32,655 nt of DNA from Candidatus Avibacteroides excrementipullorum (GCA_018711405.1 DVIH01000134.1:1-32655); one strand, 5' to 3'; counted from the stretch's first letter, positions 26,823-32,418 are shown. The notes: a model not told the origin generated them from the sequence alone. Made by a program: numbers and translations.

Positions 26823-27734
26823 ATGATATCTTTTATAAAAAACTGGGCATTGCCGATTGCTATGCTTATCGGTGCATTGTTTTACGGGTGGTTGTCTCAA
26901 TTGGAATTCATAACCCCGTATTTGATATTTGCCATGTTGTTGCTCACATTCTGCAAGATAAAGCCTTCTGAGATGAAAGTTTCGTTCATGCATTTGTGGC
27001 TTTTGCTCATTCAGATATTGGGCAGTGTGGCGGCTTATTATCTGTTTTATCCTTTGGGGAAGGTTGTGGCTGAAAGCGTCATGGTGTGTGTCATAGCTCC
27101 TACAGCTACGGCTTCGGCAGTGATTACGGCCAAGTTGGGAGGCAGTGCGGCAAGTCTTGCGGCCTATACATTGTTGTCCAATTTGGGGACGGCAATGGCC
27201 GTGCCGATAATATTTCCTTTGGTGGAGGAGAATGCCGAACTTGGATTTCTGGTCTTGTCGATGAGAATATTTTCCAAAGTCTTTCCTTTGTTGATATGTC
27301 CGTTCTTGTTGTCTGTCTTGCTGAGAGGCATAGTGCCGGGAGTCTATCGCAAGCTGAAAGAGTGTAGCGGAGCGGCTTTTTATATTTGGGCGGCATCATT
27401 GGCCATAGTTATGGCGGAGATTACTCAGGCTATATTGTCTGGCACTACCTCTGTAGGCACCGAGATAGTGATAGCTTTATGTTCTCTTGCGGTTTGTTGC
27501 CTTTTGTTTTTCATAGGAAAGAAAATAGGACGCATATATGGCGATTCCATCAGTGGCGGACAGGGACTGGGACAGAAAAATACGATATTGGCCATTTGGA
27601 TTGCCGGTACCTACCTCAATCCTTCATCGGCAATAGGTCCCGGCGCCTATGTGGTCTGGCAAAACATAATCAACAGTTGGCAATTGTGGAAGAAAAGGAA
27701 GAAAGAAGAAAAAGCATATATAAATAAGGTATGA
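26823..27734 (+). CDS. Membrane transporter of the bile acid:sodium symporter (BASS/SBF-like) superfamily
   Basis: The 303-aa polytopic protein has about nine or ten hydrophobic segments, the first pair at residues 8-22 and 30-45. The region VMVCVIAPTATASAVITAKLGGSAASLAAYTLLSNLGTAM matches the SBF-type helix pair with its paired Pro/Ala/Thr-rich break, and GQGLGQKNTILAIWIAGTYL followed by PSSAIGPGAYVVWQNIINSW matches the C-terminal helices ('GQkNT.LAiw'). The family imports organic anions with sodium, but the substrate cannot be read. The gene overlaps the next one by 4 nt (ATGA), so the transporter and the lipoprotein hydrolase-like protein are co-translated. Confidence 0.82.
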   Translation: MISFIKNWALPIAMLIGALFYGWLSQLEFITPYLIFAMLLLTFCKIKPSEMKVSFMHLWLLLIQILGSVAAYYLFYPLGKVVAESVMVCVIAPTATASAVITAKLGGSAASLAAYTLLSNLGTAMAVPIIFPLVEENAELGFLVLSMRIFSKVFPLLICPFLLSVLLRGIVPGVYRKLKECSGAAFYIWAASLAIVMAEITQAILSGTTSVGTEIVIALCSLAVCCLLFFIGKKIGRIYGDSISGGQGLGQKNTILAIWIAGTYLNPSSAIGPGAYVVWQNIINSWQLWKKRKKEEKAYINKV

Positions 27735-29977
27735 AAACAGCAAATACAGTTTCAGTTTTTAGGCATAATGCCATGTCGTGGCAGTGGGGTGCGGCATGTG
27801 TTCTTTTGACGGCAAGTTTATGTTTCTCATGCTCCTCTCCGTCATCAGAAAGGCATAGTGATGGCGGACGCGAGAAAACGGCTTTTCAGACAAGTGCAGC
27901 ATGGCGTCCGGAACTTGATGTGCGGTCGGATGTGGCTATAGTGTATAGTGTCAATTCGCACGGCAACGAAGGCGGAAAGGATGTCACATCGTTTGAGCAG
28001 CGTGCAGACTCTTGGAGGAAGCGCGGGTACGACGTGCATTACATGACGGGAATGGCTTGGGGAGAATATCAGGATTATTTCAACGGCTCATGGGACGGTA
28101 AGACCCATTTTGATGAAGGCCAGATGAATGTGCATGGAGATACTATCTGGCACGGGCCGGGAGTGCCATACGTGGTTCCTACGCTCAATTTTATAGAATA
28201 TATGAAGCAATGCCACATAAAACGCGCCATAGATGCAGGTATAGATGCCATATATCTGGAGGAGCCGGAGTTCTGGGCTTTTGCCGGATATAGCGAAGCA
28301 TTCAAAAGGGAATGGAAAGATTATTACGGCTCGGAGTGGAAGCCGCAAAACGAGTCGCCTGAGAGTCTGTATCTGTCGAACAAACTGAAATACCATCTTT
28401 TCTATCGTGCCCTTGACGAGTGTTTCTCTTTTGCAAAGGAATATGGCAGGAGCAAAGGCATGGATGTGAGATGCTATGTGCCTACGCACTCCCTGATAAA
28501 TTATTCGCAATGGAATATTGTCAGCCCGGAGGCAAGCCTTGCCTCGCTCGACTGTGTGGACGGATACATAGCGCAGGTATGGACAGGCACATCGCGCGTG
28601 CTTAACTATTTTGACGGGAAGATAGGCGAAAGGGTATTTGAGACTGCATACCTGGAGTATGGCACTCTTTATTCCATGACTGAGCCGACAGGCCGGAAAG
28701 TCTTTTTTCTGACAGATCCCATAGAGGACCGTCCGAGAGACTGGAAAGACTATAAACAGAATTACGAGGCGACTTATGTGGCGGAGCTGCTCTATCCGGG
28801 CAATGATAATTTTGAAGTTATGCCTTGGCCGGAAAGAATATATCTGGGCAAGTACAAGGTTTCGGCTGCCAGTGACAGCATGGAGAGCATTTCTCCGGCT
28901 TTCGCCACCCAGATGCAAATCATGGTCAATGCGCTCAATGATATGCCAAAGTCAGATTCGCGAGTGTCTGGCAGTCACGGCGTGAGCGTGCTTATGGCCA
29001 ATTCGCTTATGTTTCAACGTGATGAAGAAAAGATAAAAGGCTATGAAGACCCGCAGTTGGCCGATTATTTCGGACTTGCCATGCCTTTTGTGAAAAGGGG
29101 AGTGCCTGTCAGTATGCTGCATTTGGAAAATGTGGCTTACGAAAAGACTTGGGCGGATACCAAAGTGTTGTTGATGACGTATTCCAACATGAAACCTATG
29201 TCTGAAGACTGCCATGCCCATATAGCCCGTTGGGTGGAAAACGGGGGTACGCTGGTGTATGTCTCAAGAGACAATGATGCATTTTGCCGTGTGCCGGAAT
29301 GGTGGAACTCTGGGACGAACGATTTTGCTGCCCCATCGGAGCATCTGTTTGGGCTGATGGGAATGCAAAGGCATCCGAGTGACGGTATATATAATGTAGG
29401 CAAAGGGCGTGTGTGTGTCATAAGGCAGGATCCGAAAGAATTTGTCATGCAGGCCGATGGCGACAGGGCTTTTGTAGATCTGGTATCAGACTTGTATGAA
29501 AAGTCTGCCGACGGCGAGAAGATCTTGTTCAAAAACAGTTTCATGGTGCAGCGGGGATGCTATCTGGCTGGTGCTGTCATGACCGAAAGCGTATCTGACG
29601 AGTCTTTGACCCTCTCAGGCCTGTACATCGATTTGTTCGACCCGCAGCTGGGCATAGTGCAATCGAAGACTGTAGTTCCCGGCGACCGTTTCTTCCTTTA
29701 TGACCTTTCGCGTGCGAGCGTTGATGCAACACCGCGTGTGCTTGCCGGAGCGGCAAGGGTGTATGACGAGACAGTCGGAACGCGCTGCTACAGCTTCACA
29801 TGCAAGTCGCCTGCCGGGACTGACAATGTGATGAGGATACTCCTGCCCTCGCAGCCGGAAGAAATAAATGCGGAGGCGGCCGATGGGCTTGATTACGCAT
29901 GGGATGAAAAGAGCAAGACCCTGTTGTTGACATTTGCCAATGACCCGGATGGAGTGGATGTGATTGTGAAATGGTAA
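27731..29977 (+). CDS. Lipoprotein, candidate glycoside hydrolase with GH42-like layout
   Basis: The 748-aa protein has a lipobox (LCFSC, lipid on Cys34) after a hydrophobic segment. I do not recognise a named family with certainty. Residues about 65-380 look like a TIM barrel of clan GH-A type: AIDAGIDAIYLEEPEFWAFA (Glu177/Glu178 and Glu180, a candidate acid/base at a strand end), AFKREWKDYYG, GERVFETAYLEYGTL (Glu304/Glu309) and NDNFEVMPWPERIYLGKY (Glu362). Residues about 415-520 look like a flavodoxin-like domain (VLLMTYSNMKPMSEDCHAHI, then ARWVENGGTLVYVSRDND), as in the trimerisation domain of GH42 enzymes, and the last 150 residues are beta-rich. GH164 beta-mannosidases share such a layout and are one candidate, by memory only. 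The downstream GH130 gene makes a mannoside substrate plausible. It overlaps the BASS-like gene. Confidence 0.6.
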   Translation: MKTANTVSVFRHNAMSWQWGAACVLLTASLCFSCSSPSSERHSDGGREKTAFQTSAAWRPELDVRSDVAIVYSVNSHGNEGGKDVTSFEQRADSWRKRGYDVHYMTGMAWGEYQDYFNGSWDGKTHFDEGQMNVHGDTIWHGPGVPYVVPTLNFIEYMKQCHIKRAIDAGIDAIYLEEPEFWAFAGYSEAFKREWKDYYGSEWKPQNESPESLYLSNKLKYHLFYRALDECFSFAKEYGRSKGMDVRCYVPTHSLINYSQWNIVSPEASLASLDCVDGYIAQVWTGTSRVLNYFDGKIGERVFETAYLEYGTLYSMTEPTGRKVFFLTDPIEDRPRDWKDYKQNYEATYVAELLYPGNDNFEVMPWPERIYLGKYKVSAASDSMESISPAFATQMQIMVNALNDMPKSDSRVSGSHGVSVLMANSLMFQRDEEKIKGYEDPQLADYFGLAMPFVKRGVPVSMLHLENVAYEKTWADTKVLLMTYSNMKPMSEDCHAHIARWVENGGTLVYVSRDNDAFCRVPEWWNSGTNDFAAPSEHLFGLMGMQRHPSDGIYNVGKGRVCVIRQDPKEFVMQADGDRAFVDLVSDLYEKSADGEKILFKNSFMVQRGCYLAGAVMTESVSDESLTLSGLYIDLFDPQLGIVQSKTVVPGDRFFLYDLSRASVDATPRVLAGAARVYDETVGTRCYSFTCKSPAGTDNVMRILLPSQPEEINAEAADGLDYAWDEKSKTLLLTFANDPDGVDVIVKW

Positions 29978-30064: not shown

Positions 30065-31378
30065 ATGAAAAATACAGTGAAAAGAAGAAGCCCCATAACA
30101 TGGGTTCCTACCGCATACTTCGCGATGGGTATGCCGTTTATCGCCATAAATCTGGTGTCTACATTCATGTTCAAGGATTTGGGCATTTCCGATACGCAGA
30201 TTGCTTTTTGGACATCTATAATCATGATGCCTTGGACATTGAAGTTCCTGTGGAGTCCGTTTCTTGAGATGTACAAGACTAAGAAATTCTTTGTGGTGCT
30301 TACACAGTTGCTCAGCGGCCTGTTGTTCGGCGTGGTGGCATTCTCTCTCAATTTCGATTATTTCTTTGCCATAAGCATTTCGACCATGGCGGTCATAGCA
30401 TTGAGCGGGGCCACTCATGACATAGCATGCGATGGCGTGTATATGGCAGAACTGTCGTTGAAAGATCAGGCGAAATACATAGGCGTGCAGGGTGCGTTCT
30501 ACAATATTGCCAAACTTGTGGCCAACGGCGGCCTTGTGGCGCTTGCCGGAATGCTGGCAGAGCATTTCGGGGCGGTGGAGAACGCAAGCATGCAAGACAA
30601 CATGCCGGCCTATAAGGATGCATGGATGCTGATATTTGCAGTCATATCGGTCATGATGATCCTGCTGGGGCTGTATCACATCAAGATTTTGCCTTGCAGC
30701 CAGAGCGGCAATCATGTCACCCGTTCGGCGGGCGAGGTCATGCGCGAGTTGGTGCTTGTGATAAAAAATTTCTTCACCAAGAAACATATAGTCTACTACA
30801 TCTGTTTCATCATACTCTATCGCTTTGCCGAAGGGTTTGTCATGAAGATTGCCCCTCTGTTTCTGCGTTCGGCACGCGATGACGGCGGTTTGGGCTTGTC
30901 ACTCACCGAGATAGGCACGCTCAACGGCGGTTTCGGCTCGGCTGCTTTCGTGCTCGGCTCGTTGCTTGCCGGCGTTTACGTATCGAGATTCGGGCTGAAG
31001 AAGACTTTGTTCTCGCTTTGCTGCGTGTTCAACTTCCCTTTCATAGCCTATACGCTTCTTGCCATATACCAGCCTGAAAACATTTATGTGATAGGAGCGG
31101 GAATAGTGGCGGAATATTTCGGCTACGGTTTCGGGTTTGTTGGGCTTACGCTTTTCATGATGCAGCAGATAGCTCCCGGTCCTCACCAGATGTCGCATTA
31201 TGCCTTTGCTTCGGGCATTATGAATTTGGGCGTGATGCTGCCTGGCATGATGAGCGGATTTTTCAGCGACATGCTCGGCTACCGTGATTTCTTTATCTAT
31301 GTGCTTCTTGCGGCCATACCCGGATTGATAGTCACCTATTTCATTCCTTTCACTTATAATGATGAAGCGAAAAAATGA
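30065..31378 (+). CDS. MFS transporter, AmpG-like (probable oligosaccharide importer)
   Basis: The 437-aa protein has 12 predicted membrane helices. The start WVPTAYFAMGMPFIAINLVS and the loop FWTSIIMMPWTLKFLWSPFL followed by EMYKTKKFFVV match the AmpG/PAT branch of the major facilitator superfamily, and GATHDIACDGVYMAEL is the conserved 'D.a.Dg' helix of that branch. AmpG members import sugar-peptides or amino-sugar disaccharides with protons. The GH130 phosphorylase begins 62 nt downstream, and such MFS/GH130 pairs occur in Bacteroides N-glycan loci, so import of beta-mannosyl-GlcNAc or mannobiose-like sugars is the best inference. Substrate is not shown by the sequence itself. Confidence 0.85.
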   Translation: MKNTVKRRSPITWVPTAYFAMGMPFIAINLVSTFMFKDLGISDTQIAFWTSIIMMPWTLKFLWSPFLEMYKTKKFFVVLTQLLSGLLFGVVAFSLNFDYFFAISISTMAVIALSGATHDIACDGVYMAELSLKDQAKYIGVQGAFYNIAKLVANGGLVALAGMLAEHFGAVENASMQDNMPAYKDAWMLIFAVISVMMILLGLYHIKILPCSQSGNHVTRSAGEVMRELVLVIKNFFTKKHIVYYICFIILYRFAEGFVMKIAPLFLRSARDDGGLGLSLTEIGTLNGGFGSAAFVLGSLLAGVYVSRFGLKKTLFSLCCVFNFPFIAYTLLAIYQPENIYVIGAGIVAEYFGYGFGFVGLTLFMMQQIAPGPHQMSHYAFASGIMNLGVMLPGMMSGFFSDMLGYRDFFIYVLLAAIPGLIVTYFIPFTYNDEAKK

Positions 31379-31440: not shown

Positions 31441-32418
31441 ATGGACAGAAAAGTAAATATCCCTTGGGAAGAGCGTCCGGCATCGTGCCGGGATGTGGTG
31501 TGGAGATATTCCCGCAATCCTGTGATAGACCGTTATCACATACCGTGTTCCAACAGTATATTCAACAGTGCGATAGTGCCTTTCGGCGATGGGTTTGCCG
31601 GAGTGTTCCGTTGCGACAACAAGGCAGTGCAGATGAACATATTCGCAGGCTTCAGCAAAGACGGACTGAACTGGGACATCTGCCATGAGCCGATAGTATT
31701 CAAACCGGGAAACACCGAAATGATAGATTCCGACTACAAGTACGACCCGCGTGTGACATGGATTGAAGACCGCTATTGGATTACGTGGTGCAACGGATAC
31801 AACGGCCCTACCATAGGCATAGGCTATACGTTTGATTTCAAGGAGTTTTTCCAGTGTGAAAACGCATTCTTGCCGTTCAACCGCAACGGAGTGCTGTTTC
31901 CGCAGAAGATCAACGGCAAATATGCCATGCTGAGCCGTCCGAGCGACAGCGGGCATACGCCTTTCGGCGACATATACATCAGCTACAGTCCCGACATGAA
32001 ATACTGGGGCGAGCACCGTTCTGTCATGAAAGTCACTCCTTTCGAGGAGAGCGCATGGCAATGCACCAAGATAGGCGCAGGCTCAGTGCCGTTCCTCACC
32101 GAAGAGGGATGGCTCATGTTCTATCACGGCGTGATAACCACGTGCAACGGTTTCAGATATTCTATGGGAGCCGCCATACTCGACAGGGATAATCCGGAGA
32201 AACTGCTTTACCGCACCCGCGAATACCTCCTTGCTCCGGCCGCACCCTACGAGTTGCAGGGCGATGTGCCCAACGTGGTGTTCCCATGCGCTTCGCTGTG
32301 CGATATGGAGAAAGACCGTGTGGCTATCTATTACGGCTGCGCCGACACCGTGACGGGACTCGCTTTCGGGCACATTTCAGAGATACTCGACTTTGTAAAG
32401 AAACACTCTATACTTTAA
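31441..32418 (+). CDS. GH130 beta-1,4-mannoside phosphorylase (Man-GlcNAc / mannooligosaccharide type)
   Basis: The 325-aa cytoplasmic enzyme has a five-bladed propeller fold. It looks closely like the GH130_2 enzymes Uhgb_MP and BT1033 as I remember them: [90 protein letters not shown] and [20 protein letters not shown]. The catalytic proton donor is predicted as Asp102 in YDPRV; phosphate-binding Arg and His residues ([16 protein letters not shown]) are present. It should phosphorolyse Man-beta-1,4-GlcNAc or beta-1,4-mannooligosaccharides to mannose 1-phosphate. The MFS gene upstream probably supplies the substrate. Exact chain-length preference cannot be inferred. Confidence 0.92.

Follow-up and report, generated by a model that had tools for sequence, protein, structure and literature searches.

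What does the gene of 748 codons in the window analyzed here encode, and on which glycans might its product act? The window is a 32,655-nt stretch of the genome of Candidatus Avibacteroides excrementipullorum (GCA_018711405.1, contig DVIH01000134.1). The first-pass annotation had described the product (hereafter, the query protein) as an uncharacterized lipoprotein resembling glycoside hydrolases of families GH42 and GH164, with a possible activity on beta-mannosides or other glycans. On balance, the query protein is probably a secreted glycosidase of mannose-rich glycans, having the GH42/GH164 architecture and belonging to an unclassified family. The features discussed are listed in Table 1.

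Table 1. Coordinates of the features of the window and of neighbors of related genes at other loci
Feature	Position	Strand	Evidence
Upstream membrane protein, weakly BASS-like	26823..27734	+	NCBIfam bass E 0.07; stop overlaps start of query gene
Unclassified three-domain glycoside-hydrolase-like protein, 748 aa (query protein)	27731..29977	+	Open reading frame, family alignment, structure model
Signal peptide region, residues ~15-34	27773..27832	+	Helix 17-33 in model; sequence
(beta/alpha)8 barrel, residues 46-414	27866..28972	+	Model; family alignment
Glu177-Glu178-Pro-Glu180, end of beta4	28259..28270	+	Invariant in 39/39; DSSP strand assignment
Asp329-Pro-Ile-Glu332-Asp333, end of beta7	28715..28729	+	Asp329 39/39, Glu332 38/39, Asp333 39/39
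Trp366-Pro-x-Arg369, after beta8	28826..28837	+	Invariant
Flavodoxin-like (Rossmann) middle domain, residues ~415-595	28973..29515	+	Model; weak DUF4350; full-length Foldseek
C-terminal beta-rich domain, residues 600-748	29528..29974	+	Model
MFS transporter, AmpG-like	30065..31378	+	Pfam, NCBIfam
GH130 phosphorylase	31441..32418	+	Pfam E 1.3e-68; 4udg (UhgbMP) E 4e-152, full length
DUF4964/DUF5127/GtaA neighbors of related genes	L012:10623-13115, L031:4874-7402, L072:11202-13688, L081:11195-13663, L082:6566-9034		

The reading frame, family, fold, conservation, gene neighborhoods and gene fusion were computed. The frame is uninterrupted throughout, and its product shares about 50-61% identity with 38 other distinct relatives; this conservation makes it a genuine gene, far beyond a chance frame. 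The GTDB contig set yielded full-length relatives at 17 loci, every one of them in Bacteroidota. With the window genome counted, the family was present in 25 of the 251 genomes of the host's own taxonomic family and in 4 of the 396 Bacteroidota genomes searched phylum-wide; in the searches made here it was confined to this phylum. Since the phylum-wide genome search gave no intermediate relatives at E 1e-6, the members form a compact group that stands isolated among known sequences.

That the protein has no known family, as proposed at first pass, was supported by the searches of Pfam, NCBIfam and PDB sequences. We found no Pfam family for the query protein (the best was DUF4350, E 0.12) and no NCBIfam family. 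Neither single-sequence (phmmer) nor profile searches gave a relative among PDB sequences, the best profile match (E 0.064) being unconvincing, and no characterized glycosidase similar by sequence or profile was found with Pfam, NCBIfam, PDB sequences and hhalign. The DUF4350 match was weak among the family members (best E 5e-4) and gives no more than a hint of the flavodoxin-like domain. Searches of the open-licence literature gave no described family that fits. We regard the group as a candidate new family, for which a CAZy family number may already exist.

The start of the query gene and the upstream stop share 4 nt (ATGA, 27731-27734). The translational coupling to a BASS-like transporter, proposed earlier, is consistent with this overlap, but Met15 (27773) offers an alternative start, and therefore coupling is likely rather than proven. 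The assignment of the upstream membrane protein to the BASS type is itself weak; Pfam gave no family for this protein, and the PDB held nothing that convinced as a relative. Description of the query protein as a lipoprotein is doubtful: its candidate lipobox, FSC|SS, is poor, and the signal peptides of most relatives, as judged by eye, are ordinary ones that lack Cys. Of 46 members, one fitted a rough lipobox pattern, which was too strict to rely on.

The AlphaFold2 model of the query protein, built from 22 aligned sequences, was confident (mean pLDDT 86.8, pTM 0.88). The anticipated TIM barrel was present, with eight parallel strands alternating with helices (residues 50-54, 68-72, 101-107, 173-177, 247-253, 278-284, 323-329 and 361-365, by DSSP); it is the most conserved domain (mean 0.77). 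The middle domain occupies the place of the GH42/GH164 trimerization domain. A Foldseek search of the PDB with the whole chain (about 770 columns) produced matches at 9-12% identity with TM scores of 0.42-0.55. The best full-length match was the GH42 beta-galactosidase 4uzs (E 4e-14; also 3tts and 1kwg), followed by IaSGT 7vky of the GH35 type (E 8e-14); the GH164 beta-mannosidase Bs164 (7oms) also matched along the full length (E 1.5e-12, TM 0.44-0.49). The confident model and these matches bear out the three-domain architecture. When modeled alone (pLDDT 81.6), the barrel matched a mixture of GH14, GH66, PgaB, PelA, GH35 and GH42 structures, with the best query TM of 0.62 for GH42 6y2k. Membership in clan GH-A is therefore probable, not assured, and the three-domain layout is stronger evidence than the barrel, whose matches are not discriminating. 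A viral fold library gave only generic GH5 and TIM-barrel matches.

In fold, the family resembles GH42 and GH164; by sequence, it belongs to neither of them, and the earlier proposal of a relationship holds for the first part only, given the results of the Pfam, PDB and hhalign searches. PF02449 matched neither the query protein nor any of 22 members, and hhalign gave a 7.6% probability against seven GH42 proteins. For GH164, phmmer and profile searches found no chain of that family among PDB sequences at E up to 10. GH42 shares with the query protein the barrel, the flavodoxin-like domain and the beta domain, and gave the best Foldseek E-value; it differs in the Asn-Glu at the beta4 end, where the query protein has the invariant Glu177-Glu178. 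IaSGT, a beta-1,2-glucan-associated GH35 protein of Ignavibacterium album, has a similar barrel with Rossmann-like and Ig-like domains and a similar spacing of catalytic Glu residues (PMC8861115), but it is cytosolic and glucan-linked and has no sequence similarity to the query protein. Bs164, from Bacteroides salyersiae, is likewise a Bacteroidota protein with three domains (barrel, middle sheet and beta) and acids at beta4 and beta7, again with no sequence similarity.

Conservation was counted over 39 distinct members. Enzymes of clan GH-A carry their acid/base after strand 4 and their nucleophile at the end of strand 7. By DSSP strand order, and as a matter of position only, the carboxylates of the query protein sit at these same places. 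Glu178 at the end of beta4 is the predicted acid/base, while either Asp329, the last residue of beta7, or Glu332, three residues on, is the predicted nucleophile/base. Their spacing from Glu178 (151-154 residues) falls between that of IaSGT (176/343, 167 residues) and that of Bs164, in which Glu160 is the acid/base and Glu297 the nucleophile (PMC7105311; 137 residues). Whether the acids meet in one pocket was assessed from strand positions only. All members have Glu177 where the clan has Asn, turning the Asn-Glu signature into Glu-Glu, whereas Asn-Glu was invariant in the seven GH42 proteins of these genomes.

Bs164 has eight conserved contacts in the -1 subsite, including Arg75, Asn159, Glu160, Trp263, Glu297, Arg341 and Glu346, with Trp336 as the platform. 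By strand position, Glu178, Trp284, Asp329/Glu332, Trp366 and Arg369 of the query protein could be paired with such contacts; in particular, Trp284, invariant at the beta6 end, would pair with Trp263, and Trp366/Arg369 with Trp336/Arg341. By this analogy, Trp366-Pro-x-Arg369 is the predicted platform of the -1 subsite. Asn159 is replaced by Glu177, and Arg75 and Glu346 have no obvious counterpart by position.

The motifs noticed at first pass (LEEPEFW, FETAYLEYG and NFEVMPWPERIY) were all found in the sequence, and the key acids within them do not vary. Among the acids proposed from them, Glu178 retains its place as a candidate, being conserved in all 39 members at the beta4 end. Conversely, Glu304 and Glu309 are poor candidates, since they lie on helix alpha6 (302-320), away from the ends of the barrel strands, and Glu362 falls within strand beta8; the partner at beta7, Asp329/Glu332, had been absent from that list. 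One diverged member (L042:8871-11141) has Gly in place of Glu332 as well as the change R289Q. Its locus has an NADH-quinone oxidoreductase/antiporter-type gene nearby, and no glycan enzyme was recognized beside the family gene; a change or loss of function is possible in this member.

Gene order was read around 46 members, with Pfam annotation made on representative loci. We observed a recurring block of SusC, SusD (both presumably so, as named from size and order), DUF3823, the family gene, a DUF4964/DUF5127/GtaA protein and GH92, to which GH76, GH125 and GH38 were added in several loci. Families GH92, GH125 and GH38 comprise alpha-mannosidases, and family GH76 endo-alpha-1,6-mannanases (PMC9213526). 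Across 30 genomes bearing the family, with the expectation derived from genome-wide densities, GH76 was found within 10 kb of the family gene, or fused to it, in 9 genomes against an expected 0.6; for GH92 within 10 kb the observed and expected figures were 13 and 2.0, and for GH125 they were 4 and 0.3. With genera as the unit, GH76 was near the family gene in 6 of 13 (against 0.6 expected), GH92 in 6 (against 1.7) and GH125 in 3 (against 0.25). Besides, a GH76 domain was fused ahead of the whole family protein in L004/L030 (Pfam E 2.8e-44; L030:7051-10239, 1,063 aa), and an open frame of 900 codons in genome G520 carries both GH76 and the family protein. The presence of an alpha-mannan neighbor was scattered on the family tree, whose supported branches require it to have changed at least 10 times; therefore, the link to alpha-mannan is not one clonal event. 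Many members have no adjoining alpha-mannan enzyme, including those of the window's own clade (with L028 and L029), and SusC/D with GH76, GH92, GH125 or GH38 occurs in many relatives' loci and not at the window locus.

The mannose connection suggested at first pass is upheld, although the relatives' loci point to alpha-mannan systems with GH92, GH76, GH125 and GH38, the opposite of GH164 loci, which lack alpha-mannose families (PMC7105311). The Bacteroides MAN-PULs for yeast alpha-mannan combine SusC/D with GH92, GH76, GH125 and GH38, as seen around many relatives; the available portions of the descriptions of these systems mention no gene like the query gene. GH99 is typical of some MAN-PULs, whereas a single GH99 match over the cut-off was found in the 30 genomes bearing the family, and GH99 was rejected as a partner or functional counterpart. 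GH130 was rejected as a general partner, being close to the family gene in the window only among the 30 genomes.

Several neighbors deserve a separate mention. The DUF4964/DUF5127/GtaA six-hairpin protein adjoins the family gene in five loci (Table 1). A fungal protein sharing these domains took up the label of an activity probe for glycosidases and has been suggested to be a glycoside hydrolase (PMC9668830), and so this neighbor may be a second uncharacterized enzyme of these loci. A 404-aa protein directly downstream of one relative (L019:10156-11367) has a partial match to GH42, to the end of the profile only (E 7e-8). Neighbors of 411-742 aa at four further loci (L018:5951-7972, L020:4482-6707, L026:10398-11942 and L015:6713-7945) had no Pfam match at E 1e-5.

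In the window itself, the MFS/GH130 pair reported downstream of the query gene was confirmed, both members by Pfam. The structure matched by the GH130 protein, UhgbMP, is a beta-1,4-mannosyl-N-glycan phosphorylase (PMC10619541), and no signal peptide was apparent by eye in the window protein. The checked portion of the rest of the window was housekeeping (DNA polymerase III beta, amidase, MlaD and an AraC regulator). The window genome, which is 88% complete, had five matches to GH92, one to GH130 and none to GH76 or GH125. With GH130 and GH92 present and GH76 and GH125 not found, the organism probably directs the query protein at mannosides, N-glycan-like or other, rather than at alpha-1,6-mannan.

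We consider it likely that the query protein is an active glycosidase on mannose-rich glycans. The catalysis, catalytic residues, localization and linkage that we infer would combine as follows. The protein would be secreted, to the periplasm or the surface, and most likely exo-acting, on fungal-type alpha-mannan in many relatives and probably on N-glycan-type glycans in the window organism. Glu178 would protonate the leaving group, the carboxylate at the beta7 end (Asp329 or Glu332) would serve as the nucleophile or base, and Trp366 would provide an aromatic platform beneath the sugar site. The sugar removed would be beta-linked, with beta-mannose as the first choice. Such a target is suggested because the GH92, GH76, GH125 and GH38 enzymes cannot remove it, and is favored because the close architectural relatives all act on beta-linkages. 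In the window, the product would enter via the MFS or BASS-like carriers, and the cytosolic GH130 would split Man-beta-1,4-GlcNAc by phosphorolysis. Given an active enzyme, we would assign about half of the expectation to a beta-mannoside, about a third to another beta-linked sugar (galactose, galactofuranose or xylose) and the rest to an alpha-mannoside.

If the bond cleaved were alpha-mannosidic, as at a branch or at the core alpha-1,6-mannose, Glu178 and Asp329 would work together by inversion on a scaffold like that of GH42. The neighbors and fusion partners are overwhelmingly alpha-mannan enzymes, Asp and not Glu ends strand beta7 in all members, the barrel-only matches include alpha-acting TIM barrels (GH14, GH66 and a GH129 enzyme), and at the time of a plant N-glycan study (PMC9522356) no enzyme had been reported to remove the core alpha-1,6-mannose. 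An enzyme that acts on alpha-linkages or by inversion remains a candidate, given that Asp may be the partner at strand 7 and that the fusion is to an alpha-mannanase. Still, we find it rather improbable: the closest full-length architectures (GH42, GH164 and IaSGT) are all beta-acting, the loci already contain several alpha-mannosidase families, and the catalytic positions of the GH66 type, with an acid at beta6, are not present. A bolder version would make the query protein the founder of a new family, with the same inverting pair, Glu177 in place of the clan Asn and, as its target, an alpha-mannosidic linkage left by the known alpha-mannosidases, for instance that of the N-glycan core alpha-1,6-mannose or of a mannan branch point; this we regard as a long shot.

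Unlikely, but deserving some weight, is a beta-galactosidase, beta-galactofuranosidase or beta-xylosidase that trims side chains of heteromannan and is not a mannosidase; fungal galactomannan and plant N-glycan would be examples of its targets. GH42 is the best architectural match, and some relatives adjoin GH2, GH3 and GH29; loci that serve mannose glycans with decorations, plant N-glycans among them, contain GH29, GH3, GH130 and GH92 (PMC9522356). The match to GH42, however, does not extend to the level of residues. The conserved position beside SusC/SusD and the one diverged member without Glu332 would also suit a non-catalytic protein for glycan binding or assembly built on a glycosidase scaffold; there is little chance of this, since 39 members share invariant acids where strands beta4 and beta7 end and no domain is conserved more strongly than the barrel. 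Finally, a plain member of the existing family GH42 or GH164 would account for the same three-domain fold, but such an identity is very improbable in view of the hhalign result and the absence of a Pfam GH42 match, of a GH164 or GH42 PDB chain at E up to 10 and of the Asn-Glu pair.

For a glycosidase of mannose-rich glycans, the loci of the family indicate substrates to try, and the GH76 fusion is a ready-made expression construct. The Glu-Glu pair and the Asp at the catalytic strand ends would test the extent to which this scaffold can depart from the rules of clan GH-A. If active, the query protein would represent a new family of glycoside hydrolases and would fill in a missing step of the route by which gut, rumen and environmental Bacteroidota take mannose-rich glycans apart.
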